Source of the DNA: an uncultured Thermogutta sp. | GTDB lineage: Bacteria > Planctomycetota > Planctomycetia > Pirellulales > Thermoguttaceae | Direction: 5' to 3' | Length of the DNA: 64,000 nt | Assembly (NCBI GenBank): GCA_937128505.1 | Contig: CAKZMM010000026.1 | Location: forward strand, 1-64,000 | Part shown: positions 315 through 20,965 of the stretch, in pieces | Position numbering within the stretch: the stretch's first letter is position 1 | Layout: each line of letters begins with the position of its first letter | Notes under the pieces: model-generated | What the model was told of the DNA's origin: nothing | What the model saw: only the letters and a program-made list of their open reading frames with translations | Database searches by the model: none | Made by a program: the position numbers and the translations under genes

Positions 315-3311
315 TCACTGACTTGAAAAGATTTCGTCGACTGCCGGACAAACCATCCCGGCCGAAGCCTTATCATGAGAATTAAGTCCCACGCAACGAT
401 CACTAACGAATTCACAAGCGAATTCTCCAGTCGAATGAAAAGTTGAAAAGCTCCCCTCAGGGTTATCCGCCCCCAATTGCTGAGCTTCGACCGCAATCTC
501 CATCGTAGGTCCACCATTTACCGGACGGAGACGATAGAGGACAACCTTTTCGGCGGCCCGATCTGCTGCCGGGTAACGCTTACGGGCGGCGGCAACTGCA
601 ATGTCCCGTGCATTATCGTCGACACGATACTCCGCATGCAGCAGGCGATGTTCTTTTGCCTTCTCGGCCTCCCCCAACATGGCATAAAGAAGGGATAAGT
701 TGTAATGAGCCGTGATGTTTTCCGGGTCCAGTTCAAGCGTTCGATGGAACCACTGCCGCGACTCTTCCAAAAGGAGTTTTCGTTTTTGGGCTTCCGCCTG
801 CCGAATCCGTCGGGCCTGGTCGAATAAAGTTTCGCCGAGGAGATTCAGGACCTCGTAGTCTCTCCGAAAGTCGAAACCTCTCGCTGATAACTCCGGCGGG
901 GGCGGTTGATCTACGATCTGTCGCAAGCTGGCCGCTGCTTCATCCAGATGCCCCTGCTGGCGGTTAATCACGGCCGATAACCAGCTTGCGGTCCACCACG
1001 GAAATTCCGGCGGCGGGGCACGCAAAGCCCTTTGAAGACACCGGGTCGCTTCGTCTAAGTCTCCCTCGATTTGATACACCCGGGCTAGGTTCAGCGGACC
1101 GTGATAACTTCCGAGCGATTCAACCTGCCGAAAAGCTTCAGCCGCCTGCCGCAGTTGAGCCTTACCTTTGAGCAGAAGACCGATGCCATAATCGTTCCAT
1201 CGTTCCCAAGTGGGTATCTTCTCGATAGAGTCATCTGAACTGAGCCACTGCGTGGGGGCTTCCACGCCGGCCGCCGCTATGTCCCCAACAGCAAGGCTGA
1301 CTGAATCGCTGCAAAGGACGGTTACCGGCAACTTGTTTCGATAGGGTTTGCCGGGCTCTAGACCGGGAAGGGGCTTTTCGCCGGGTTTCATCTGGCTCAC
1401 TACAAAATTCATAAGCTCCCAATCGAACTTTCGGTAGCACACGGCGGCTTTGATTTCGAGAATGCCGCCCGCAGCGGCCTCGGGCACCGCAAGCAGGTAA
1501 TGGATGGTGTTCGCGGCGCCGGGCGGGATTTGATGATCGTAAAGCGGTACGAAAATATCTTGAGGATTTCTCCGCGCAATCCGATTCCCATGTCGGTCCA
1601 GCATGAAAACGTTGATGAAATGCGCCTCAGGATCAACACGACCCCATTCGTCAATACCACCACTTTCCACCAAGGGCTTGCCGTTTAGGTCGACTCTCAA
1701 ATGAACCCAAACCTCGTTCGAGTCGGTTGTGCCTTGTGTAAAATGATGACCAACACCAAGTGTACGTATGACCACTTCAAGCAAGTAGTGGCTCCCTGGG
1801 CGAAGCAGTGGGACTTGCGGACGCAAAGGGGCGAGCAAACGGCCGTCGATGTGACCCCCTTCTCTAAGCCCGAACAAATCGATTCGAAGCTGACCTTGAA
1901 GAAACTGCTGATGCAATTCCACCATAGTCGGATTGCCCCGGAAGAAAGGTAGCGCTGTGTTAGCGCCGAGGAACCAATGACTTCGCACGCTCAAACCTTC
2001 TATTTCCGGATAAGGCTTGGCGCCGAAATCGGCAGAACTAACCGGGGGCATATGGCAGGCAGCACAATTGCTTTTTGCTTGCTTCGGATAGTAAAAACTA
2101 CGAGCCCCGTGTCCCGAAACACCGCTCAGCAAAAACGAATCATAATGGTTCTGCCCCCGCAGGAACTTGTAGTCGTTCACCGATTTCGGAATGTGCACTT
2201 TATGGCAAACGGAGCAAAACTCGGCCGTTCGATGGAAGGGCTTCAAAAAGGTCCTCTTATGGAACTCTGGCTTAGCCCGGATGAGCTGGTGGTTCACCCA
2301 TTTCAAAATGGGGTTTTGGCTGAAGGCGAACGGGTAATGAAGCGGTTCCTCGATCGTATAGTCACCATTGCCTCGCACGGAATTGATGGCGACTATCGAG
2401 TGACAACTGCTGCAAGTAATCCCCGCATGGGCCAAGGGATCGTGAATATCATCAAAATCCGGATCGTCGAATGCTCCGCTAAATAGCGGAACTGGGTCGT
2501 GGCACCCCGCACACCATCGTGAGCGAAGCACATTGCCATCCCGCTGGAGCGAAACTTGCCGCGTCTCACGAACCGAGGCCAAGTAGACCGGATTATTCAT
2601 GGAAGCGAATCGATGCGCACTTTCTGCCCATTGAGCGTGTACATCAGGATGGCAATCTTTGCAGTATTCGTTATCCAAAAGTAACTCGGGGCGAATATGC
2701 CGCCCGTGAGCAGTTCGTGCAAAAGATGGGGCAAAAATACTCCGCTCTTGCCCCGCATTCGCCGCGATCTGCCGACCGCGGGGGTCGAAACCATGTCCAA
2801 TCACAAATAAGGCGCAAACGCCCACTACCGCGCCGATCCACGCGAACATCCGCAAGGGGCGGATTCCTCGACCGCTAACGCGATGCAGCCAATAAAGACC
2901 TAAAGCAAAAACGGGAGTCAACACGTGAACCCAATAGGCTATCGATCGAATCAACGGATGCTTTACCGCCAAAGGCTCCGGACGCCACAGGAGCAAACCA
3001 CTGACCACCAAAGCAGTGGCCACCCCAACAAGCAAAAATCCCCAGCGTTTGGTTGCCGGGCGACGCACCCCCGCCATGGACCGCCAATGGAGCAACACAT
3101 ATGAGATAAGTAACCCAATGAAGAATAGACCACCAACCAGATGCACTAGAAAGAAGTATTGGTAGGCATAATTCTGAAGGACAAAACCGGTCACATGCTC
3201 CATGAAGGTTATGCCGGATAAATAAAGACCGTTTCCGGCCAGCAAGATTACACAGAGATTAGTGGCCCAAAAGAGCCACAAGCTCCATCCTCTCAAAACT
3301 CGCGATTTCAT
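315..3311 (-). CDS. Membrane-anchored pentaheme cytochrome c with C-terminal TPR domain
   Basis: A 998-residue protein probably involved in electron transfer at the cytoplasmic membrane. The first ~175 residues hold about five hydrophobic segments (roughly 8-32, 52-74, 90-110, 121-142, 155-172) with several histidines (H57, H129, H143), resembling a cytochrome-b-like membrane domain. Five CxxCH heme c sites follow: CKDCH at 217, CAGCH at 267, CSSCH at 300, CSVCH at 366 and CAACH at 416. This is the cytochrome c554-like multiheme arrangement. From about 740 to 920 there are TPR-like helices (for example around ALRAPPPEFPWW and LELDPENITAHYNLSLLYAM). The ATG at 3311 is followed directly by the first membrane segment. 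The multiheme assignment is firm; a b-heme in the membrane part and the electron partner are inference. No other respiratory gene lies beside it. Confidence 0.85.
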   Translation of the reverse strand: MKSRVLRGWSLWLFWATNLCVILLAGNGLYLSGITFMEHVTGFVLQNYAYQYFFLVHLVGGLFFIGLLISYVLLHWRSMAGVRRPATKRWGFLLVGVATALVVSGLLLWRPEPLAVKHPLIRSIAYWVHVLTPVFALGLYWLHRVSGRGIRPLRMFAWIGAVVGVCALFVIGHGFDPRGRQIAANAGQERSIFAPSFARTAHGRHIRPELLLDNEYCKDCHPDVHAQWAESAHRFASMNNPVYLASVRETRQVSLQRDGNVLRSRWCAGCHDPVPLFSGAFDDPDFDDIHDPLAHAGITCSSCHSIVAINSVRGNGDYTIEEPLHYPFAFSQNPILKWVNHQLIRAKPEFHKRTFLKPFHRTAEFCSVCHKVHIPKSVNDYKFLRGQNHYDSFLLSGVSGHGARSFYYPKQAKSNCAACHMPPVSSADFGAKPYPEIEGLSVRSHWFLGANTALPFFRGNPTMVELHQQFLQGQLRIDLFGLREGGHIDGRLLAPLRPQVPLLRPGSHYLLEVVIRTLGVGHHFTQGTTDSNEVWVHLRVDLNGKPLVESGGIDEWGRVDPEAHFINVFMLDRHGNRIARRNPQDIFVPLYDHQIPPGAANTIHYLLAVPEAAAGGILEIKAAVCYRKFDWELMNFVVSQMKPGEKPLPGLEPGKPYRNKLPVTVLCSDSVSLAVGDIAAAGVEAPTQWLSSDDSIEKIPTWERWNDYGIGLLLKGKAQLRQAAEAFRQVESLGSYHGPLNLARVYQIEGDLDEATRCLQRALRAPPPEFPWWTASWLSAVINRQQGHLDEAAASLRQIVDQPPPPELSARGFDFRRDYEVLNLLGETLFDQARRIRQAEAQKRKLLLEESRQWFHRTLELDPENITAHYNLSLLYAMLGEAEKAKEHRLLHAEYRVDDNARDIAVAAARKRYPAADRAAEKVVLYRLRPVNGGPTMEIAVEAQQLGADNPEGSFSTFHSTGEFACEFVSDRCVGLNSHDKASAGMVCPAVDEIFSSQ

Positions 3312-8107: not shown

Positions 8108-9919
8108 TCATCCGAAAACGGATCCTTTCAGTAGATGAAGCTCTTCTAACTGCATTTGCGCCCGCGAGAATTCCCGACGCAGATACTGGGGACCTTGGCG
8201 GATTGTGGTGTGATCCCAAGGAAGTGGCTCATCGAGCTCATAGGGTTGGTGAAGCAAGCTATCGATATCCACCCCGCTTTCTTCAATAGCTTCCCTCCAA
8301 AGATCGCTACGGAAATGGTCGCTCCAACCGTCGAGCCGAGCCCCCTTTCGCCAGGCTCGCTCAATGACCGCTCCCAATCGCCGGTCGCCCCGGGCGAGTA
8401 AGCCTTCCAGGAGACTCGCTTCGACGTCGTGGTACTTGATTTCCACATGACGGGATCGTCTGTACCTGACGAGCCGCCGATGAACGTCCGCGAAATATCC
8501 GCGGGTCTGCATCCCGTGCCACTGATAGGGGGTGTGGGGCTTGGGGACGAAATTTGATACGTTCGCTATCACCGTGGCAGGCTTTCCGACCACTTGACGC
8601 CGCAATTCCGAAAGCGTCTCCGCCAACTCGACGATCCCTTTCAAATCTTCTTCTCGTTCCCCGGGCAGCCCGCACATGAAGTAAAGCTTGACCCGATCGA
8701 ACCCCCTTTCAAAGGCACGGCGGCACCCAGATACAAGGTCCGCATTGCTAATGGGTTTGCCGATTTGTTGCCGCATGTCGTCGCGGGCCGCTTCAGGAGC
8801 AAGCGTCAGACCGCTTCGCCGGTCGGTTTCAAGCAACTCTCCGACCAATTTTAGTTGCTCATTGATCCGCAAACTTGGTACCGAAATACTTACATGTAAG
8901 GGCGCCAATCGCTCTTTTAGTTGGTGCATCAACTCCTCAAACGCCGGGTAGTCGCTCGTGGAAAGCGAAAGGAGCGAAACCTCGTTGTAGCCTGTGTTCT
9001 CGTAGGTTTCTAACACACCCTTAATAATGGTTTGCACCTTTCGCCAACGCAGTGGCCGCTTCAACGTCGTGCTTTGACAGAATCTGCATCGCCACGGGCA
9101 ACCCCGCATGATCTCGATAGCGATTCGGTCCTGCACACACTCGATGTGTGGCACCAGCGGTCGGGTCGGTAAGGGCACAAGATCCAAGTTGGGCACAAAA
9201 GCAGGACGAATCTGTGCCGGCACCCCCGAAAACTTTGGCCGGGGAGCCATCATCCAGCCTTTGGGTCCCAATTGAACTTCATAGCACACCGGCACATAAG
9301 CGAACGGCAGACGTTCCGCCATGGCTCGCATGGCTGACAAGCGATCCGAATGAGCCTCGCGCACCTCTAGCCACAGCCGACAAACCTCAGGCAACGATTC
9401 CTCACCATCTCCCAAAACGAACAAATCGATAAAATCGGCCATCGGCTCCGGATTCTGGCAACACGGTCCTCCCGCAATGACCAGCGGGTCGCGCAGCGAA
9501 CGATGCTCGCCCCGAAGTGGAATCTCTCCCAGATCCAGAATCGTCAATACGTTGATGTAGTTGAGCTCATGTTGGAGGCTGAAACCAATCACATCAAACC
9601 GATCGAGCGGCGTGAAGCTCTCCAAGCTGTAAAGCGGTAACCCGTGCTTTCGCAGTTGTTCTTCCATATCCGGCCACGGGGCAAAGACGCGTTCGCAAGC
9701 CCAGTCATCCAGCCGGTTTACCGCCGCATAAAGGACCTGCAAACCGTGATTACTCATGCCGATGGAGTAAACATCGGGAAACGCAAGGCAGAGTCGGCCA
9801 CGGACAGCGGAAGCAGGCTTCCTCACCATATTCCATTCCCCACCCAGGTATTGGGCAGGTGTTTTGACATTTAGAAGAACGGAATGTTCGAGTTTTCGCT
9901 TTAGTTCTTGATTGAACAT
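8108..9919 (-). CDS. B12-binding radical SAM protein, TIGR03960-like
   Basis: A 603-residue iron-sulfur enzyme that is expected to bind S-adenosylmethionine and probably a cobalamin. The radical SAM cluster motif is at C274-x3-C278-x2-C281 (RGCPWRCRFCQ). The N-terminal ~250 residues (LCLAFPDVYSIGMSNHGL, VIAGGPCCQNPEP, FVLGDGEE) match the B12-binding/switch part of the family. In many bacteria this protein is the N-terminal half of a larger product with a DUF2344 domain (TIGR03936); here it ends without it. I chose ATG 9919 (MFNQELKRK), with AGGAAGGG upstream, over the longer frame from 10006, because the family begins with this helix. The exact reaction is not established. Confidence 0.85.
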   Translation of the reverse strand: MFNQELKRKLEHSVLLNVKTPAQYLGGEWNMVRKPASAVRGRLCLAFPDVYSIGMSNHGLQVLYAAVNRLDDWACERVFAPWPDMEEQLRKHGLPLYSLESFTPLDRFDVIGFSLQHELNYINVLTILDLGEIPLRGEHRSLRDPLVIAGGPCCQNPEPMADFIDLFVLGDGEESLPEVCRLWLEVREAHSDRLSAMRAMAERLPFAYVPVCYEVQLGPKGWMMAPRPKFSGVPAQIRPAFVPNLDLVPLPTRPLVPHIECVQDRIAIEIMRGCPWRCRFCQSTTLKRPLRWRKVQTIIKGVLETYENTGYNEVSLLSLSTSDYPAFEELMHQLKERLAPLHVSISVPSLRINEQLKLVGELLETDRRSGLTLAPEAARDDMRQQIGKPISNADLVSGCRRAFERGFDRVKLYFMCGLPGEREEDLKGIVELAETLSELRRQVVGKPATVIANVSNFVPKPHTPYQWHGMQTRGYFADVHRRLVRYRRSRHVEIKYHDVEASLLEGLLARGDRRLGAVIERAWRKGARLDGWSDHFRSDLWREAIEESGVDIDSLLHQPYELDEPLPWDHTTIRQGPQYLRREFSRAQMQLEELHLLKGSVFG

Positions 9920-10376
9920 GTGACAAAATCGTCCCTTCCTAAACTGAAGTAATGCATTTTCCAATGCTACGATTCGGATCCGTGATTTGCTCGATTCCCG
10001 AAACAAGCTTTTGCGACATTGGGGGCGACGAGCCGAAACCTTACCTACATGAAGACCTTTCGCACAGCTTTTTTGCGGAGAATTCGAGCCCGCACGATCG
10101 AATCCATTACGATTCGATCCCGGGAAACCTCTACTGCGATCCCCAACAATTATTACCCGAGGGGCTGCGAGAATTTAGAGCGCAAAAATGCTTCGCTTGC
10201 TCATTGAGAGTTCAGATTAGGAACTTAAGGATGCGCCGGAAAAAAGCAATTTTTCCACGAAAAGCGATCAACCGCCCATAAGCGCAAACCAGCCTCGTAA
10301 GCGCGGCAGGGCATTCCTTTCACATGTTGACTTAAATTCCCGGTGACCAGGGAGCGTGCGGCGTCACCGGCATCTT
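9920..10376. other. Spacer upstream of the radical SAM gene
   Basis: No gene or RNA is recognised. AT-rich stretches near 9940-9960 could hold the promoter of the leftward radical SAM gene, but I cannot place -10 and -35 boxes with confidence. Confidence 0.3.
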
Positions 10377-12560
10377 TTATGCTCTATCGCCCCGCCTTCT
10401 TAGCGCTTTACCGCCATTTTTATTGAGGTTGGCGAGCCGGAAATCCAGCTCGCGCCGGTCCAGATCTACCCGGGCCACCACGACTTTTAGTCGGTCACCT
10501 AATCGAAAAGTATTGCCCGAGCGATGACCGCTGAGTGTGTGCGTCTTGCGATCGAACCGGTATACATCATCCCGTAGGGTGCTGACATGAATAAGCCCCT
10601 CGGCCGGCAATTCTACACCTTGCACAAAAAGTCCGTAGCGTTCCACGCCGGTCACCACCGCTTCCATCTCCAAACCGATCCGCTCTTGAAGGTAATTGAG
10701 AAGCTTGAGCTTAATCAGCTCACGTTCAGCCATCTCGGCCCGTTCTTCCCGTTCCGAGCAATGCTCCCCAATTGCCACAAGTTGATAGTAATCGGTCACC
10801 GGCTTACGCCCCTCCAGAACCGCGTCAAGCAACCGGTGCACCGTTAGGTCCGGATACCTCCGGATCGGCGCGGTAAAGTGGCAATAGGTATCCGTCGCCA
10901 AGGCAAAGTGCCCTTCAGGCCGCGGACTGTAAATAGCACGCTGAAGCGAGCGAAGAACTGCATAATGGATGGCATATTGCTCCGGTCGGCCCGCTACAGC
11001 GGTGAGCAGTTGTTGCAAAGCAAACCGGCTTTCCAAGCTCTCGGACCTGATGCCCAACCCCGCCACAAAATCGTTCAGCTCCCGTAGTTTCCGCAGCATG
11101 GGGTCCTTGTGAACCCGGCGGAGAAAGAATAGCCCCTTTTCCTGCAAGAAATCGGCAACCGCTTCATTGGCGGCGAGCATAAATTCTTCGATAATCTGAT
11201 GACTTTCCGTATGTTCGATCAGCCGCGCTCCGCAAACTGCTCCCGAAGAATCCAATTCGACTTTTATTTCGGGCAAAATAAGTTCAAGCGCTCCCCGTTG
11301 TCGCCTCCTCCGCCGCAGAATCATGGCCAGGCGATGCATCCCGGCTAGCAGCCGACAAATCTCAGCCCCCCATTTGGTCTCAAAGTGGCCCGGGTCGGCC
11401 AAGAACGCATCGACCTCCTCGTAGGTGAGACGCTGCCGGCTGCGAATGACCGAACGATGAAACTCCCGATGCGTCACAATTCCGTCCGGGGTATAGTCCA
11501 CAAATACCGTTTTTGTGAAGCGCAATCGCCCGGGCTGGAGGCTGGCCAGCCCGTTGGAAATAAGCTCCGGGAGCATCGGGATGACTCGATCCGGCAAGTA
11601 CACGCTGGTGGCCCGGTTGTACGCTTCTCGGTCCAAAGCGGAGCGTGGAGGCACGAAATAAGCCACGTCGGCGATGTGCACGCCCAACCGCCATGAACCA
11701 TCCGGGTGCTGCTCCAAAGAGACGGCATCATCGAAGTCGCGTGCATCCGGCGGGTCGATCGTAATACACAAAAGCCTCGTCAAATCGAGCCGATCAGGAG
11801 GGACCGCCTCTCGAAAAGCGCGGGTTTGCTCCCGGGCTTCCTCCAGGACATCTTCTGGGAACTCTTCCGGTAAATCAAACTCCCGCATGACCAGGTGGGT
11901 ATCAAAACCCGGCTTGCCCCGGCGTCCCAACACCTCGACGATCACTCCCTCCCCCTCGTGGTAAGCGGTGGGGAAGCGGATCATTTCGATGACCACTTTG
12001 TCGTCCGGCTGTACCCCTTTTGCCCCTGGATCCCCGACGAAGATGGCAGCCGGAAAAAGCCCTCCATCCACCTCCACATAACCGAACCGGCCCGCCTCGA
12101 AATAGGTTCCAACAAACTGGAGGGTTTGTCGTTGAACCACTTCGACGATCTTCCCCCGCGGCCCCTCGCCGTTGACCCCCGCTGGCTCCGTCAGTTCCAC
12201 ACGCACGATATCACCGGTGGATGCGTCGCCCGTTCGAGACACAGGGATAAATACATCCCCTGAAGTCAGCGTGGCGAATTCGCCTTTGGGCCGTACGAAG
12301 CCGTAGCCCCCCTCAGATCGGCGAAAAGTGCCGACGATCTGTTTAACCGTTTCCCGCAGCGAAGACACCGGCCGAACCACGTGGCCCTTCCCAAAACTGA
12401 TCAAACCCCGTTTGACCATGGACTTGATGAGCCGACGCAACTGCGGCACTTCTTCCCGCGGTACCCCAAGGCGTTGAGCAATCACCTTCGGCTTTACGGG
12501 GTGATAATTCGGACCATTGACCAGCTCTAAGATTGATTTTTCTAACGATTCTTGTCCCAT
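10377..12560 (-). CDS. rnr: Ribonuclease R (RNB-family 3'-5' exoribonuclease)
   Basis: A processive cytoplasmic exonuclease that degrades structured RNA from the 3' end. Domain order is complete: N-terminal winged helix (about 5-65), two cold-shock OB domains (about 75-220), RNB catalytic domain with DPPDARDFDDAV at about 269-280 supplying the metal-binding aspartates, and a C-terminal S1 domain (about 640-715, GVERYGLFVQGVELPAEGLIHVS). The ~727-residue length is normal for bacterial RNase R. The RAIYSPRPEGHFAL and FTAPIRRYPDLTVHRLL blocks are typical of the family. I prefer ATG 12560 over an in-frame TTG two codons upstream. It shares orientation with the exonuclease gene at 13013, but a 450-bp gap argues against one transcript. 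Confidence 0.95.
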   Translation of the reverse strand: MGQESLEKSILELVNGPNYHPVKPKVIAQRLGVPREEVPQLRRLIKSMVKRGLISFGKGHVVRPVSSLRETVKQIVGTFRRSEGGYGFVRPKGEFATLTSGDVFIPVSRTGDASTGDIVRVELTEPAGVNGEGPRGKIVEVVQRQTLQFVGTYFEAGRFGYVEVDGGLFPAAIFVGDPGAKGVQPDDKVVIEMIRFPTAYHEGEGVIVEVLGRRGKPGFDTHLVMREFDLPEEFPEDVLEEAREQTRAFREAVPPDRLDLTRLLCITIDPPDARDFDDAVSLEQHPDGSWRLGVHIADVAYFVPPRSALDREAYNRATSVYLPDRVIPMLPELISNGLASLQPGRLRFTKTVFVDYTPDGIVTHREFHRSVIRSRQRLTYEEVDAFLADPGHFETKWGAEICRLLAGMHRLAMILRRRRRQRGALELILPEIKVELDSSGAVCGARLIEHTESHQIIEEFMLAANEAVADFLQEKGLFFLRRVHKDPMLRKLRELNDFVAGLGIRSESLESRFALQQLLTAVAGRPEQYAIHYAVLRSLQRAIYSPRPEGHFALATDTYCHFTAPIRRYPDLTVHRLLDAVLEGRKPVTDYYQLVAIGEHCSEREERAEMAERELIKLKLLNYLQERIGLEMEAVVTGVERYGLFVQGVELPAEGLIHVSTLRDDVYRFDRKTHTLSGHRSGNTFRLGDRLKVVVARVDLDRRELDFRLANLNKNGGKALRRRGDRA

Positions 12561-14408: not shown

Positions 14409-15962
14409 TCAATTCCTTCGCAGCTCCCCGGGGCCGCATCCATCGGGCAAGCGCCACGGCACGCTTGCGCAACGGCGTCGATGAGCCTGCAACTCGCTCA
14501 TCAGCTGGGAAAAAACCTCAGGTCGAGCAGTCGCACAATCCTTGGTTTCCCCGGGATCATCTTGAAGGTTGTAAAGCTTAAAAGGCTCCTCGGGCATATT
14601 TTGCAGAAGTTTCCACGGACCCTTTCGCACCGCATAAATCGCCCGACCGTTAAATTTACCCCCTTCCATTCGCACCCAAAAAAGTGTTCTTGTCTCCTCG
14701 TGCATTGAATTGCCGAGAAGAATCGGAAGTAAACTGCGACCATCGATCTCTCCCGGCGGCAGAACGCCTGCAAGCTCACAAATTGTCGGGAAAAGATCCA
14801 TGCTCAAACCGACTGCATCAGTCTGGCTCTCCGGCGGGATATGTCCAGGCCAAATCGCCAGTGCCGGGACTCGTATTCCTCCCTCCAACATTTGCCCCTT
14901 TTCGCCCGCAAGCGGACCGTTATCCGACCCGAAAGCCTCCTGCCCTCCATTGTCGCTCGTAAAAAACACGAAAGTCCGCTCTGCCAATCCGAGCCGGTAA
15001 AGCGTCTCCAACACCCGGCCGACTGCCCGATCGAGATCTTCCACTAAAGCTGCCAGCTTGGCCCTGCGCTCTGAAACCTTGGGAAAACGCTGGCGATATC
15101 GCAGCAACGCATCCTCCGGCGGCTGTATCGGGCTATGGGGCGCATTATAAGCCAGGTATAGAAAGAAAGGTTCTCGGGCATGCTCTTCCAGGAAGCGGCA
15201 CGCGAACTCCGTAAAAACCGACGTCGCATGACCGGGGGGATCGATCTCCCGCTCGCCCTCCCTCATGTAATTGATCCCGTGCCGGCGATGATTCCAATAA
15301 TCGTCCATCATGTCCCCTATAAATCCCCAGAACAAATCGAAACCGCGCCTCGTGGGAATATTAGGGACATCTAACCCGAGATGCCATTTGCCCACCATCG
15401 CCGTTTGATAACCGGCCCGTTTTAGAAGCTCTGGCAACAATGTCGCTTCCGGGGAAAGAAATCCCCAGGAATTGTCGCAATGGGTGCGGATCACACCCGG
15501 CACGCCGACACGGTCCGGAAAACATCCCGTAAGCAAGGCGGCTCGCGTGGGGGAACACACGGGTGAATTAGCATAGAACTGGGAGAATCGCATTCCCTGC
15601 TTGGCCAAACCGTCAATATTTGGCGTGTGCAGATCCGTGGCCCCATAACACCCCAAATCCCCATACCCGAGGTCATCTGCCAAAATTAAGATCACGTTTG
15701 GCCTCGAGACGACAGCCCTCTCTTGGCCCACCGTACTACCGAGGAGACTGCAAGTGGCGAGGAATATCGCCGCCAAAGCGGCCAGCGCCCTGCTCGCTCC
15801 ATTGCGCTCAAATATTTCGGAGCCACCCTCCGCCACATAAGGCCCCGAGTCCTTCGCAGGAGAATCGCGCCCAATAAACTGCGAGGCCTTTAACGCCGTG
15901 CAAGCACTAGTTAGGAACCATCCCGAAAGCGCAAAATGGGGAGCAGATGTCAAAAATATCAT
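14409..15962 (-). CDS. Exported sulfatase (arylsulfatase A-like)
   Basis: A sulfatase that would hydrolyse sulfate esters, probably of polysaccharides, outside the cytoplasm. The core begins with RPNVILILADDLGYGDLGCYG, whose DD pair binds metal. The formylglycine site is CSPTR at 136-140, the aerobic FGE-type Cys-x-Pro-x-Arg motif. HTPNIDGLA, GKWHLG, FFTSDNGGQ and a GEKG catalytic-lysine motif complete the signature. A hydrophobic run at about 58-78 acts as a signal or anchor but sits behind an unusual ~55-residue leader. ATG 15962 has a good upstream AGAAGGGGGG; a GTG at codon 43 would give a shorter, more standard signal peptide. The maturing enzyme is not obviously in the window: the FGE-like protein at 19754 lacks the catalytic cysteines. 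Confidence 0.92.
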   Translation of the reverse strand: MIFLTSAPHFALSGWFLTSACTALKASQFIGRDSPAKDSGPYVAEGGSEIFERNGASRALAALAAIFLATCSLLGSTVGQERAVVSRPNVILILADDLGYGDLGCYGATDLHTPNIDGLAKQGMRFSQFYANSPVCSPTRAALLTGCFPDRVGVPGVIRTHCDNSWGFLSPEATLLPELLKRAGYQTAMVGKWHLGLDVPNIPTRRGFDLFWGFIGDMMDDYWNHRRHGINYMREGEREIDPPGHATSVFTEFACRFLEEHAREPFFLYLAYNAPHSPIQPPEDALLRYRQRFPKVSERRAKLAALVEDLDRAVGRVLETLYRLGLAERTFVFFTSDNGGQEAFGSDNGPLAGEKGQMLEGGIRVPALAIWPGHIPPESQTDAVGLSMDLFPTICELAGVLPPGEIDGRSLLPILLGNSMHEETRTLFWVRMEGGKFNGRAIYAVRKGPWKLLQNMPEEPFKLYNLQDDPGETKDCATARPEVFSQLMSELQAHRRRCASVPWRLPDGCGPGELRRN

Positions 15963-15981
15963 GCTTGTTACCCCCCTTCTT

Positions 15982-16055
15982 CGCTCGGATGGAGGACATC
16001 GGCAGTATCAACGTGATTGAAAAAGAGGGCACCGTTCTGCGCTCGGATGGAGGAC
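15982..16055. repeat. Exact 16-bp duplication, 58 bp apart
   Basis: CGCTCGGATGGAGGAC occurs at 15982-15997 and again at 16040-16055, directly upstream of the sulfatase start. The spacing resembles the other 58-61 bp duplicate pairs in the window. It could be a duplicated regulatory site. Confidence 0.6.
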
Positions 16056-16249
16056 CGGTTTTCAATCCCCGCAAAAAATCGGTTTCCGATCCCTCCAAAA
16101 AACAGGGAGAAAGATCACTTAGCGATACCCAAGCTGCAAGGTCAGGCCCAAACAAATTGTTTGTTACCGAGCTGCATCACCAATTTAGCGACGAATCCGC
16201 CGAAAAACAAATAAGCTTCACGATAAGCTTCTTGACATCTTCAGCTTTG

Positions 16250-17317
16250 TTACCGGCAATTCTTCTTGGCGAAAGCCGAGAACGTGGCGGCTTTTTTGTC
16301 CCCCGAAGCCTCTTGGCCCGTCAAATGAGACCCGAGGCTAGCTCCATCCTTCGCGGTTTCCGGTCGCGACCCCTCCAGAAACGTATAACGAATCACTAAG
16401 CCGAACAAAATGATGCCACCTCCCACAATCGTCCAAAACGCGGGGATCTCCGCCCAAACAAGCCAGACCCAAAGCGGCATGACCAATGGCTCGATTAGAC
16501 CGATAAGAACCGCCTCTTGACTGGGAATGTCCTTTAACCCCTTAATCAGCAAGTAATAAGGAAGGGCCATCTGGAGACTTCCGAAGGCCATTAACACAAC
16601 GAGTTGCCCAAGACTGGGAATCCTCCCCCAAACTGCCAGAAATGGAAAAAGGACGGCGACCACCAGCACGTGATTGAAGACGACAAGCCAGGCAGGATCC
16701 TCTCCCCGCAGTCGTCGCATAAAAACAAGCACTCCGGCGTATGCCAAACCGGAGATCAGGCCCAAAACAGTACCCCAAGGAACACCACCCGCACCGACTC
16801 CTACGCGGCGAAATTCAAAGAAAAGAATGACCACAACCCCCGCGATTGCGCAGGCAAGGGGCATAATATCCCGCTGGTCGGCCGACTCCCGGAAAAACAA
16901 CCAAGACATAAAAAAGACCCAAGCCGGTGCCGTATATTGAAGCCAAATGGCATTGGCGGCTGTCCCCAACACCATGGCCGATAGATACGTAAGGTTCATT
17001 AGGACGAAGAATAGGCCAAGCGGAACCAGCAGCCAATTCAGTCGCCGCTGCCGGACGAAGGGACTGAGAATCAAAGCCGCGAAGACTGCTCGCCAAAACG
17101 CCAGCAAAAGACCTCGGATCTCCTCGGGCCACTCGGCAAATACCGGTGCCGCCTTGACAAAAAGCCCACTTGTGCTCCAAAGGAGTGCTGCCGCCACAAC
17201 GAGCAACCTACCCCGCCAGCGACTGACGGAATCCCCTGTTCTTGACGCGTGTGAAAGCGGAGAATCTGCTGCTTCAGCAAGTAACGGTCCAGTTAATTCA
17301 TTTCCGTCAGTTTTCAC
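16250..17317 (-). CDS. EamA/DMT-family transporter (10 TM)
   Basis: A membrane transporter of the drug/metabolite superfamily, made of two EamA repeats of five helices each. The first helix is LLVVAAALLWSTSGLFVK; the motif-like end of the first repeat and the FGSLQMALPYYLLIKGL and LIEPLVMPLWVWLVW blocks of the second are typical. The substrate is unknown. The frame can be extended to a TTG at 17473, giving an ~85-residue polar leader that is unusual for the family. GTG 17317 has GGAG six bases upstream and leaves a normal length (~355 residues), so I chose it. The gene follows ApbE on the same strand and is probably cotranscribed with it. Confidence 0.85.
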   Translation of the reverse strand: MKTDGNELTGPLLAEAADSPLSHASRTGDSVSRWRGRLLVVAAALLWSTSGLFVKAAPVFAEWPEEIRGLLLAFWRAVFAALILSPFVRQRRLNWLLVPLGLFFVLMNLTYLSAMVLGTAANAIWLQYTAPAWVFFMSWLFFRESADQRDIMPLACAIAGVVVILFFEFRRVGVGAGGVPWGTVLGLISGLAYAGVLVFMRRLRGEDPAWLVVFNHVLVVAVLFPFLAVWGRIPSLGQLVVLMAFGSLQMALPYYLLIKGLKDIPSQEAVLIGLIEPLVMPLWVWLVWAEIPAFWTIVGGGIILFGLVIRYTFLEGSRPETAKDGASLGSHLTGQEASGDKKAATFSAFAKKNCR

Positions 17318-17479
17318 CGTGGGCTCCAATTTCCTGATTAACTCCGCTCGTGATCGCCGCAAATAAATCCGGCTTGCCACCTGTACTTGCCCATTCGAGC
17401 GTGCAGCTTTTCCCCCGCGTGCATTTGCCCTTTTGTAACCAGGAATAAGCCTTCGTTCACTCGTGCGATTCAAATACTA

Positions 17480-18691
17480 TTATTTCTTTGCGGGAGTCCC
17501 TCCGTTCTCCGACCCGAGCCTAGTTACATCAAGTAGTTCCGCGCCGGACGTAATCAACTCGCTGGCTTTCAGCAAAGGAAGGGTCGACCATCGGGCAGAA
17601 CGGTAGACCTCGTAGCCTCTGCTAATACCATCCAGTTGGCCAGGGTTGGATCGCGGACTTGATGAATCCGACTCCCGGTTCTTTGCTTCACGAATAAATT
17701 CCGCGGCACACCCCTCGATTCGGTCCACAAGTTTGAGCCCGGCCTCCGGACCAAGCACACTGACCGCAGAGGCCAACGCATCGGCCGTGGTACAATCGGG
17801 ACCCACCACAGTCACCATGCTCCGTCCACGCATGGCCCAACCTGAACGCGGATCTATCAGGTGAGAGTAACGCTCGCCGTTTATCGTGATATGTTGAAAG
17901 CGGTCGCCACTCGTAGCAACGGCACAATTCGCAAGTATTAGGAATTGCTCCGGTTGCGCCGTGGGCTCAAACGGCTGAATGGCGATGACCCAACCGCTTC
18001 GCCCCGGCGGCGGCTCGCCAAGCCGGATGTCTCCCCCCGCGTCCACAAACGCGTGCCGGATTCCGCGCTCGCGGAGCAGTTCAATGCTTTGGTCGACGGC
18101 GTATCCCTTGGCAATCCCGCCAAAATCCAAAAGCATTCCCGGCCTATTTAACAACACACTTCGGGTTTCCGCGTTTGTCGATACGAAACGATAACCTACT
18201 GATTCCTTCGCCTGTTCCAGAGCGGAAACCGAAGGCAGTTCCCGCTGCCGCCGCGCTCTCCGCCACAAACGCACCACCGGACCGACTGTCACGTCGAATG
18301 CCCCCTCGGATTGCTCAGAAAACCATAGGGAACGATTCAACAATTCCCACAATTCCGGGCTAACTGGGAGCCAGCAGTTTGTTCCAGCAGAAGCGGCCAA
18401 TCTTTTCACTTCACTGTCAGGCAGATAGTCGCTAAAAATCTCATTAAGTTGATTAAATCGATCCTCAATATTGCATATAGCTTCTTTAGCGTCGCAATCA
18501 TCTTCTGCAAAAAAAACAACTTTTACCGGCACAGCCATCGCAACAAATTCGAATTCGAAACGCTGCAATCTGGGATTGGCGGCTTGCCCAGAACTCGGCG
18601 GGCACTTGGGTTCGCCCCCCAATAACAGTTGGCTCGAAAACATCAAGAGGAAAAGCAAGGTTACAGCAGGACTCATATTAGTAATGTTCAC
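17480..18691 (-). CDS. apbE: FAD:protein FMN transferase (ApbE)
   Basis: An exported Mg-dependent flavin transferase that attaches FMN through a phosphoester to Ser/Thr of target proteins such as redox subunits. An N-terminal hydrophobic stretch (VTLLFLLMFSSQLLLGG) serves as signal peptide. Family motifs are present: LLDFGGIAKGYAVDQ, HAFVDAGGDIR, the HLIDPRSGWA block (usually DPRTG) and TTADALASAVSVLGPEAG, which carries the metal-binding aspartate. About 45 C-terminal residues beyond the core are not conserved. GTG 18691 opens the frame, with ATG 18676 as alternative. The transporter gene lies immediately downstream. The flavinylated partner is not evident in this window. Confidence 0.92.
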   Translation of the reverse strand: MNITNMSPAVTLLFLLMFSSQLLLGGEPKCPPSSGQAANPRLQRFEFEFVAMAVPVKVVFFAEDDCDAKEAICNIEDRFNQLNEIFSDYLPDSEVKRLAASAGTNCWLPVSPELWELLNRSLWFSEQSEGAFDVTVGPVVRLWRRARRQRELPSVSALEQAKESVGYRFVSTNAETRSVLLNRPGMLLDFGGIAKGYAVDQSIELLRERGIRHAFVDAGGDIRLGEPPPGRSGWVIAIQPFEPTAQPEQFLILANCAVATSGDRFQHITINGERYSHLIDPRSGWAMRGRSMVTVVGPDCTTADALASAVSVLGPEAGLKLVDRIEGCAAEFIREAKNRESDSSSPRSNPGQLDGISRGYEVYRSARWSTLPLLKASELITSGAELLDVTRLGSENGGTPAKK

Positions 18692-19165
18692 TTTTTGACA
18701 GCAGGCTACTCGCCGAAAGGATGCTCCGTGTAAACAGCTCCTGGTGAGCCTTTATGAAGCTTGACCGTGACCCCACCCGCACACGCATTAACCGGTCCTA
18801 ACAGCAACATCTCTAAAAGTTTATACATGAGGGGCACACCAATTACGATTGGATATTTAACCCCTTAAAAACCACCAAGTAAGATACGATTTGGCAGACT
18901 GATGCTAATCTCCGTCACCTCACGCGACTAAAAAGCCAAATGATGCATTCATTTTTTGCTCTGTTTTGATTGGGCCGAGAAACAAGCACACAAAGTCCAT
19001 GAACCAAGCACCCAAAATCGACTATTATTAGGGAACTGCGCAGGATTACTACTTTAAAAGTGTTTTAGGCGGCCCAGCGATCCAATTTCTCATTTAATGT
19101 ATCCGATGCGTTCAAGGACTCCTGCTCATCCTCCTAATCCGAAACCGAGTTCTTCTAGTACTTAT

Positions 19166-19231
19166 ACTTGAACGTACACGGATAATTCATGGCCCACTAC
19201 TTGAAGGTACACGGTTAATTCATGGCCCACC
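19166..19231. repeat. 33-bp imperfect tandem duplication (2 copies)
   Basis: Copies at 19166-19198 and 19199-19231 share ACTTGAAnGTACACGG, then an AATTCATGGCCCAC block, with 30 of 33 positions identical. The unit resembles an IS terminus in flavour, but no transposase remains nearby. Confidence 0.8.
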
Positions 19232-19260
19232 TTGCGAGTGGCTTGGCGAAGTGTCTTCTC

Positions 19261-19290
19261 TGCGTTAAAAAATTCTGCGTTAAAAAATTC
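19261..19290. repeat. Exact 15-bp tandem duplication
   Basis: TGCGTTAAAAAATTC is present twice with no gap (19261-19275 and 19276-19290). Confidence 0.85.
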
Positions 19291-19520
19291 GGCATTGGGG
19301 ACGGCCTGGAACTTCGTCCCAGATTATCTTGCAAAGGGTAAAAAGAACAAAAGAATAGCCGACTCCCCAGTTCGCCGGTTCCTCCCAAGTACCGTGCGGC
19401 CCCCCGAAGGGCCCTTTATCTGGTCAAAAGTGCCTCCCAGAAATGCCTTGGCTTTGTCCCTGATTTGCGTCGGCGAGGCAGGTGTTTTAGAATGGGCGGA
19501 AGCGCATTCACCGAATAAGC

Positions 19521-19608
19521 TCGGTTTGCGCACTGAGTTGTTCCATATTCGTATTGTGGACAACGATGCATTAAAGATGGTCGGTTCGCGCACTGAGCCG
19601 TTGGATGT
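19521..19608. repeat. 28-bp duplicate pair, 60 bp apart
   Basis: TCGGTTyGCGCACTGAGyyG starts at 19521 and again at 19581, with partial similarity continuing for about 8 bases. Confidence 0.65.
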
Positions 19609-19686
19609 TGAGTCCTGTAGAAAGTACCATCGTGCAATCCGTTGAGGTGTGTAAAAGTGACGTGATCTGGTTGGAGGGATTAGACC

Positions 19687-19726
19687 GTGATCCCTCGGTT
19701 AGAGTGGTGATGCCTCGATTAGAGTT
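19687..19726. repeat. 20-bp imperfect tandem duplication
   Basis: GTGATsCCTCGrTTAGAGTk is repeated at 19687-19706 and 19707-19726, just ahead of the FGE-like gene. A further GAGTTTTGA / GAGTTTTGA echo follows. Confidence 0.75.
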
Positions 19727-19753
19727 TTGAGAAGAGTTTTGAAGGAGCTTGAT

Positions 19754-20965
19754 GTGAAACAGTTCGTAACGTGGAGATCAGATCGAATGCATGAATGCCG
19801 CCCCCTAAGCCGGGCACTCCGAGTGTGGGTTTGGATCCTCCTTTTGCCCATGCATTTTACAATCGCGGCTTTCGCGGGAGAAAGTTCCGATTTGCCGCAA
19901 GACTTCGACCCTAATGCCTTGATTTCTTTAGAGCTATTCCCCCATGTGAAACCGGTTCCCGAGGTTTCGATACCGGATGCTGAGGCCACCGACGAGGCCA
20001 GTATGAAGCCTTATACGGAGGTGGTTCCGGGGACCGAGGTAAAAATCGAAATGGTACCCATCCCAGGTGGGAAGTTTCTCATGGGAAGTCCGGAAGACGA
20101 GCCGGGCCGAAATGAGGACGAAGGACCTCAGCATGAAGTAGAAATCGAACCGTTTTGGATGGGTAAATACGAAATTACCTGGCAACAATACGATGCTTGG
20201 GCCCTGAAACTCGACTCGCAATGGCGACGTCTAAAACGGCAGGCGGAAAGCCGTGAGCCTACCGCATGGGAGCGCCTGGTGGATGCTATCGCTCGCCCCA
20301 CCAACGCTTATACCGACATGACCTTCGGGATGGGCCGCGAGGGTTACCCGGCCATTTGCATGACGCAGTACGCTGCGAAGTTTTACTGTAAGTGGTTATC
20401 GGTGAATACAGGCCGTTTTTACCGATTACCGACCGAAGCAGAGTGGGAATATGCCTGCCGAGCTGGGACCACCACGGCTTACTCGTTCGGGGATGATCCG
20501 GAAAAGCTCGGCGAATACGCATGGTATTTCGATAACGCCGATGATGCCTACCAAAAAGTAGGGCGGAAAAAGCCGAATCCTTGGGGTCTTTACGATATGC
20601 ACGGGAATGTGGCGGAATGGTGCTTAGATCAATATGTACCGGACTTTTACAAGCGTTTTGCCGGGAAGACAACTAAGAATCCTTGGGCAGTTCCGAAGGA
20701 CGAATATCCGCGAGTGGTTCGAGGTGGATCTTGGGATGATGATCCGGAGGCTTGCCGGAGTGCCGCACGCCGGGGATCCCACCCCGATTGGAAAATGCAA
20801 GATCCCCAAATCCCGCAAAGTATCTGGTTTTTGACGGATGCGCCGTTTGTCGGCTTCCGGATTGTGCGGCCCTTGCGAACTCCATCGCCGGAAGAGGCAA
20901 AGCTGTATGAGCCAGAGGTGGAAATCCTTCGCGAGTACATCAAAGCTCAAGGGGGCAAGCAGTAG
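19754..20965 (+). CDS. Exported FGE-like (SUMF1) domain protein, catalytic cysteines absent
   Basis: An exported protein with a formylglycine-generating-enzyme-like fold. A signal segment ([20 protein letters not shown]) is followed by the FGE-sulfatase domain from about residue 85: [87 protein letters not shown] and VGFRIVRP. True aerobic FGEs carry two active-site cysteines shortly after RGGS; here that segment reads [18 protein letters not shown], and the usual GFRC cysteine is also missing, so formylglycine synthesis is unlikely. I chose GTG 19754 because AAGGAG sits six bases upstream; ATG 19787 also has a GGAG. Many planctomycete paralogues of this fold have unknown roles. Confidence 0.85.

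Follow-up and report, generated by a model that had tools for sequence, protein, structure and literature searches.

The DNA stretch analyzed here, referred to as the window, comprises 64,000 nucleotides from an uncultured Thermogutta sp. (contig CAKZMM010000026.1, positions 1 to 64,000; contig C26 of genome G000), and the gene under study lies close to its start. On the minus strand, positions 315-3311 hold an open reading frame (ORF) that starts with ATG, runs for 998 codons and encodes a putative multiheme membrane cytochrome (Table 1). From the N- to the C-terminus, the chain consists of five membrane helices (residues 9-174), a pentaheme domain (about 207-446), a beta domain (about 475-676), tetratricopeptide repeats (TPRs; about 700-921) and a tail. 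AlphaFold2 modeled the whole chain from an 80-row alignment with a mean predicted local distance difference test score (pLDDT) of 85.1 and a predicted template modeling score (pTM) of 0.84, and pLDDT fell below 50 only at residues 180-187 and 948-998. A first-pass annotation had described a membrane segment, hemes and TPRs fused in one chain, and the same fusion is found in the intact relatives that we aligned; the annotation overlooked the beta domain between the hemes and the TPRs, as well as a neighboring gene.

The protein represents a real, conserved family and is not an assembly accident. Near full-length relatives are present in 14 of 99 related genomes, including this one; the relative in G048 is split over two frames, the only such case among the 14 carriers, and the two other genomes of the same genus among the 99 lack the cytochrome gene. 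A scan of public genomes found at least 584 relatives among at least 590 stretches, from which the best 80 loci from named genomes were taken as the close set. By record title, 74 of these belong to Planctomycetota, five to Verrucomicrobiota (L105, L107-L110) and one to a "bacterium" (L064), and the closest among the matches listed is a Thermogutta metagenome-assembled genome (61%). A frame with five CXXCH motifs is present in 80/80 kept loci, and the 80-sequence alignment unites the window protein with 79 of them (L078 was left out). When genomes were sampled evenly across the phylum, 100 out of 392 matched at E≤1e-100, some only partially. Judged by their scores, 29 of the 102 matches in this sample form a second, divergent subfamily; 16 loci chosen from these 29 constitute the divergent set, and a mixed alignment of 24 sequences covers both subfamilies.

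In an AlphaFold2 model of the membrane part alone (mean pLDDT 86.5), helices span residues 9-41, 48-79, 85-109, 119-146 and 152-174, in line with the multipass segment with histidines noted at first pass. Histidines 57, 75, 129 and 143 are unchanged in 80/80 aligned sequences and 16/16 divergent relatives; histidines 118 and 173 vary. Helices 2 and 4 each carry two of the invariant residues, one close to either face of the membrane, and the domain thus shows the pattern of a di-heme cytochrome b, with two conserved histidines on each of two bundle helices. Averaged over the 80 rows, the net charges of the successive loops are +3.3, -0.4, +4.5, +0.9, +3.7 and -0.6, a positive-inside pattern that predicts a cytoplasmic N-terminus and a periplasmic heme part. 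Because the loop charges place the N-terminus inside and the hemes outside, helices 2 and 4 should run in the same direction, and the predicted pairing of these parallel helices is therefore His57-His129 and His75-His143.

Structural comparison with VIA-align ranked cytochrome b6 (2e74_A) at the top for the membrane model (Z 10.9, 141 aligned residues, root-mean-square deviation (rmsd) 3.5), with Hya cytochrome b (Z 10.4), FdnI (9.6), bc1 (7.7-9.5), NOX5 (9.4) and b561 (8.2) as further neighbors, although the aligner cautions that Z values under about 13 between helical bundles can mean a common arrangement only. By title, all but one of the 50 rows shown belong to heme-bearing membrane proteins, with bc1 or b6f recurring many times, and the exception is a designed four-helix bundle (Z 7.9). 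The helix-D heme ligands of b6, which we take to be residues 187 and 202, would coincide with His129 and His143 at offsets of 58/59; the end of the b6 alignment (model residue 150, chain residue 209) gives a close offset of 59. As modeled, the membrane bundle appears closest to heme-b proteins, at a level below proof. The annotation had named the lack of a four-helix heme-binding bundle as an outcome that would overturn it; heme-b neighbors and four invariant histidines were found instead. Weak Pfam hits on the membrane part were scattered over the 80 members (Yip1 in 17, DUF7139 in 13, DUF2231 in 8, DUF420 in 6 and COX1 in 5, with DUF4405 in 4/80 at E≤0.1) and were rejected, since we took them to reflect chance or general membrane character.

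When the residues of the chain were shuffled 20,000 times, CXXCH motifs averaged 0.013 and reached at most 2, as against five in the chain itself, and all five motif histidines are conserved in 16/16 divergent relatives. The earlier description of a pentaheme c554-like region holds for the number of heme sites; the likeness to c554 is limited to residues 217-305, the stretch covered by Pfam Cytochrome_C554 (PF13435, 30.8 bits versus a cut-off of 20.8). The hemes together with the beta domain match cytochrome c552. The model of residues 207-673 aligned with pentaheme cytochrome c552 (5ze8) at Z 14.6 over 345 of 385 residues (rmsd 3.9, 19% identity), and phmmer also found this protein by sequence (E 0.0007 over about 100 residues). 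When the heme regions of 38 members were compared with NCBIfam profiles, 36/38 matched ExtKL at E≤0.1 (best 1.5e-9), well short of its cut-off, and 34/38 matched the DmsE decaheme profile (best 1.9e-5); for the window protein, DmsE (22.2 bits, 8.3e-5, cut-off 192.2) scored above ExtKL (16.2 bits, 0.003). Because DmsE matches nearly as many members and outscores ExtKL on the window protein, the match does not single out ExtKL, and membership was rejected at 16.2 bits versus the equivalog cut-off of 250 bits (NF040886). NrfH identity was likewise rejected, given 12.7 bits versus a cut-off of 134.2 for TIGR03153 and five helices rather than one short membrane segment. A CXXCK motif of the NrfA type does not occur here, all five sites being CXXCH. 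Judging from the model, the heme and beta domains appear related in fold to c552, as one unit, and are not classed as ExtKL.

In the TPR region, Pfam TPR_8, TPR_11, TPR_17 and TPR_19 all scored above their cut-offs, and residues 734-895 aligned structurally with a consensus TPR protein (Z 17.0, 134 aligned residues, rmsd 1.8). The Pfam matches and the superhelix alignment bear out the TPR end proposed by the annotation and speak against unrelated sequence, the finding by which that proposal was to be judged. Foldseek and VIA-align rows for the full-chain model were mostly TPR proteins, and the missing multiheme cytochromes in them are no evidence; TPR hits also dominated a profile search of solved structures with ten divergent full-length relatives in the alignment, which was not used. 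A PHROGs search of the protein gave zero matches.

The family is accompanied by a characteristic neighbor. The commonest neighbor cluster (median length 635 amino acids) occurs at 64/80 loci, with 74 listed placements, of which 59 put it directly after the cytochrome gene in the same orientation and 10 upstream of it. Pfam assigned two downstream neighbors tested (L080 and L054) and the copy in this genome (P0001) to the FG-GAP/UnbV (CRTAC1-like) class, P0001 scoring 40.6 bits with UnbV_ASPIC (PF07593, cut-off 23.4) and 124.4 bits with FG-GAP_3 (cut-off 26.9). For the downstream and N-terminus counts, neighbors were recognized by a simple FG-GAP motif count. Of the 71 loci that leave 1.5 kb or more of room, 58 have such an ORF beginning no farther than 1.5 kb downstream, on the same strand, and in 11/16 divergent loci it comes right after the gene or overlaps it; two divergent loci without it, L136 and L138, have less than 450 bases of room.

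With P0001 as query at E≤1e-120, 15/99 genomes matched, namely all 14 cytochrome carriers and G092, which places the partner orthologue in 14/14 carriers versus 1/85 others (Fisher test, 4e-16, uncorrected for kinship). In G092, a 55-residue C-terminal remnant of the cytochrome (L186, G092:C228 11278-11442) precedes a partner frame that runs open into the end of its contig, reflecting gene decay or an assembly error. G068 contains both genes twice, each pair together; besides the standard pair, a more divergent one is located at C62:6247-9363 and 9642-11348. The partner N-terminus carries a hydrophobic stretch in 54/59 proteins of the close set and a lipobox-like pattern in 8/11 of the divergent set, where the hit of L139 falls inside the propeller; these sequence features suggest two ways of tethering the partner at the membrane. 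The propeller protein co-inherited with the cytochrome is its likely partner and is probably membrane-tethered. The annotation had proposed partner docking and a search for relatives and their neighbors; the search yielded the family and its FG-GAP/UnbV neighbor, and the co-inheritance lends support to docking.

Other propeller genes also occur. At 16/80 loci there is another FG-GAP protein, about 1,200 amino acids long (e.g., L040:5645-9229), mostly just upstream of the cytochrome, and the example tested also matches TPR, below the cut-off. An NHL-repeat propeller gene (e.g., L045:8811-9686) lies near the cytochrome in 10 loci and directly upstream of it in 8.

In the window, the downstream flank of the gene comprises only 315 bases, because the window starts at base 1 of contig C26. 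The FG-GAP/UnbV probe matches 17 places in this genome, the best at C52:72013-73737(-) (668 bits, 56%) and the next at about 312 bits and 36%; besides the C52 gene, eight places match most of the probe (269-313 bits) and eight are fragmentary. The ATG of the C52 partner is 162 bases from the end of C52 (73,938 bases), and its orientation fits an order in which C52 comes before C26. The same 21-base repeat is present on both contig ends (Table 1 and C52:73860-73880). Across the genome there are 19 copies (13 exact, 6 with a single mismatch; 0 for a reversed control pattern), at least 15 of which lie within 150 bases of a contig end. It is probably a terminal repeat, belonging to a multi-copy insertion sequence at which the assembly breaks, and this insertion sequence most likely split the assembly between the cytochrome and partner genes. 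The ends of C52 and C26 share no exact overlap over 10 bases.

A heme-copper oxidase (COX1) was found in 14/14 carriers versus 50/85 non-carriers (Fisher test, 0.0018, uncorrected for kinship and completeness). NrfD-family genes, which we take to represent the family of alternative complex III (ACIII) membrane subunits, are present in 10/14 carriers, including this genome, and rule out a simple replacement of complex III. The cytochrome thus belongs to oxidase-bearing organisms and does not simply take the place of complex III. Among the window genes tested beside the cytochrome, there are no electron-transfer genes except an ApbE flavin transferase, 14 kb away. The latter is part of a cluster at 14409-20965, together with a sulfatase (14409-15962), an EamA transporter and an FGE-type sulfatase-modifying-factor gene.

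Table 1. Features of the cytochrome gene and its flank, in window coordinates.
Feature	Position	Strand	Basis
Whole gene, 998 amino acids (stop codon 315-317)	315-3311	-	ORF with ATG start
Five-helix membrane domain (residues 9-174), model bundle resembling heme-b proteins	2790-3287	-	AlphaFold2, VIA-align
His57, helix 2, predicted periplasmic half	3141-3143	-	invariant 80/80 and 16/16
His75, helix 2, predicted cytoplasmic end	3087-3089	-	invariant 80/80 and 16/16
His129, helix 4, predicted periplasmic half	2925-2927	-	invariant 80/80 and 16/16
His143, helix 4, predicted cytoplasmic end	2883-2885	-	invariant 80/80 and 16/16
Pentaheme c domain (about residues 207-446)	1974-2693	-	Pfam, motif, structural alignment
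Heme site 1, CKDCH 217-221	2649-2663	-	CXXCH motif
His233, candidate distal heme ligand	2613-2615	-	invariant in all 24 of the mixed alignment
Heme site 2, CAGCH 267-271	2499-2513	-	CXXCH motif
Heme site 3, CSSCH 300-304	2400-2414	-	CXXCH motif
His351, candidate distal heme ligand	2259-2261	-	universal in 24 of the mixed alignment
Heme site 4, CSVCH 366-370	2202-2216	-	CXXCH motif
Heme site 5, CAACH 416-420	2052-2066	-	CXXCH motif
His445, candidate distal heme ligand	1977-1979	-	universal in 24 of the mixed alignment
Beta domain (about residues 475-676), aligned to c552 together with the pentaheme core	1284-1889	-	AlphaFold2, structural alignment
His522, candidate distal heme ligand, within the beta domain	1746-1748	-	universal in 24 of the mixed alignment
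TPR domain (about residues 700-921)	549-1214	-	Pfam, AlphaFold2, structural alignment
C-terminal tail, unconserved, low-confidence (residues 948-998)	318-470	-	alignment and AlphaFold2
21-base repeat, between the gene and the contig end facing the presumed partner on C52	57-77	+	19 genome places

On this evidence, we consider it reasonably probable that the protein is a one-chain quinone-linked cytochrome with two b and five c hemes, whose TPR end docks a dedicated propeller partner. It would reside in the cytoplasmic membrane, where the N-terminal bundle would hold two b hemes between helices 2 and 4, one bound by His57 and His129 on the periplasmic side and the other by His75 and His143 on the cytoplasmic side, and would exchange electrons with the quinone pool. 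From there, the pentaheme module in the periplasm would receive the electrons, with flow most likely directed outward from quinol; we prefer this direction because, as far as we know, it is the commoner use of such modules. The TPR tail would hold the membrane-tethered FG-GAP/UnbV propeller encoded by the next gene, which may in turn position the final acceptor or complete the acceptor's site.

Besides the aligner's caution given above, several observations weigh against this interpretation. For the membrane model, Foldseek returned nothing at E≤0.001 (best FdnI, E 1.1), and no sequence profile ties this part to any known cytochrome-b family tested; hhalign gave probabilities of 13% to DUF4405 (PF14358)-type and 6% to Ni_hydr_CYTB (PF01292)-type proteins, with reversed controls at 0.6% and 4.6%. 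The invariant histidines are spaced by 18 residues on helix 2 and by 14 on helix 4, and the universal histidines outside CXXCH in the heme and beta domains number four, one short of five bis-His hemes. The downstream neighbor is absent in 13/71 loci with room and in the divergent L131, L135 and L143, which also have room; G086 carries the cytochrome and the partner on different contigs, and in this genome we infer the adjacency of C52 and C26 rather than read it from sequence. The association of the oxidase with the cytochrome is weak.

The same components could also work in the opposite direction, with the pentaheme module and the propeller accepting electrons from a donor in the periplasm, and the b hemes delivering them to quinone. 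The sequence fixes neither direction, the oxidase in all 14 carriers fits either, and one-chain cytochromes of the CbcL/MtrH/MtoC type have been proposed for both in the available part of PMC6295460. However, no periplasmic donor enzyme is linked among the partly annotated neighbor clusters, all of which, FG-GAP apart, occur in at most 16/80 loci, and we regard this direction as unlikely. A different view of the heme domain starts from the four universal candidate distal histidines (233, 351, 445 and 522) that serve five hemes in the 24 sequences: an open c heme could reduce a periplasmic small molecule, which would make the protein a quinol:substrate reductase complete in a single chain, comparable to NrfH and NrfA combined. 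Such an enzyme would be without a known substrate and, with all five sites CXXCH, has zero CXXCK of the NrfA type, and one of histidines 360, 389, 401 and 604, which are at least 90% conserved in the window's own subfamily, could fill the fifth distal site; we hold this possibility to be less probable than the reverse flow.

The membrane helices might be a plain anchor without heme b, and the pentaheme module a tethered electron carrier or a structural part, as the lack of a sequence link to cytochrome-b families (Pfam, hhalign) and of a significant Foldseek match would allow. This is quite improbable in our view, since the four histidines are invariant across two subfamilies even though the identity of this domain to that of the window protein is only 27-39% among close relatives, and the best structural neighbors are heme-b bundles. 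Least probable of all is that the TPRs and the propeller work as a pair in assembling or scaffolding some other complex of the envelope, with electron transfer being secondary. TPR and FG-GAP are generic interaction domains, and the further FG-GAP protein near the gene in 16 loci, with its below-cut-off TPR match in the tested example, would suit such a role, but all heme sites are strictly conserved, which argues that redox function is under selection.

The quinone-linked one-chain cytochrome may be part of something larger, although we offer this extension only tentatively and consider it doubtful as a whole. Planctomycetota and Verrucomicrobiota would then have a respiratory module of two genes, in which electrons would move from quinone through two b hemes to a c552-type relay with an open heme, and the TPRs would clamp a membrane-tethered UnbV propeller, probably one that binds calcium, which would complete or feed the active site. 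If true, these bacteria would possess a one-chain oxidoreductase leading from quinol to the periplasm, which would operate next to ACIII and, in some species, perhaps instead of it. We know of no role assigned to FG-GAP/UnbV proteins in these bacteria. The co-occurrence gives one of them, out of 17 matching places here, a specific testable job, and the association ties it to a pentaheme module that appears related in fold to c552. Putative quinone entry, heme relay and docking domain are kept as one evolutionary unit, which in G068 is duplicated pair by pair.

The membrane domain resembles b6, Hya cytochrome b and FdnI, whose ligands are histidine pairs on helices 2 and 4, in its helix-bundle arrangement and in the conserved pairs on these helices. 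Unlike the present domain, those proteins are separate subunits; the two cytochrome-b Pfam families tested show no detectable sequence homology to it, and its spacing is 18/14. The annotation had contrasted the chain with quinol-oxidizing multiheme systems whose parts are usually split over subunits, a contrast that proved too strong, as CbcL/MtrH/MtoC and ImcH are fusions as well. In the available parts of PMC9129911 and PMC6295460, CbcL/MtrH/MtoC proteins similarly join several c hemes to a di-heme-b-like membrane domain within a single chain and have a quinone-linked role. CbcL is described with nine N-terminal c hemes and six C-terminal helices (PMC6295460), and by this description alone the present chain differs in that five helices come first, followed by five hemes, the beta domain and the TPRs. 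We therefore rejected the CbcL/MtrH/MtoC layout (c hemes first, about six C-terminal helices), the order of which is reversed here. ImcH is closer in order, with N-terminal helices and C-terminal c hemes in one chain, but has three membrane helices and seven CX2CH motifs, and the available description mentions neither a TPR nor a beta domain (PMC6295460).

The pentaheme core and beta domain, as a unit, resemble c552 of Thermochromatium tepidum (5ze8) and the PHC family, which includes ExtKL, Gsu2801 and the sPHC/lPHC proteins of cable bacteria (PMC11976967). In contrast to the present protein, the cable-bacteria members are described as extracytoplasmic and soluble, and the available part of this source mentions no membrane bundle or TPR end; it proposes at least one pentacoordinate heme for sPHC/lPHC and describes c552 as having no clear function (PMC11976967). 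A CRTAC1/UnbV FG-GAP gene also adjoins hydrazine synthase (HZS)-like multiheme genes, according to the available part of PMC12758564, and this cluster represents a second association of the propeller class with multiheme cytochromes. It resembles the present loci in having an FG-GAP/CRTAC1 gene beside multiheme cytochrome genes, but encodes HZS-like alpha and beta-gamma subunits and not the present cytochrome (PMC12758564). Among the open-licence PMC papers listed by our searches, this architecture appeared in no title or abstract opening. One-chain b/c fusions are already known from CbcL; what sets the present family apart is its order of parts, its heme module, its beta domain and TPRs, and the neighbor inherited with it.

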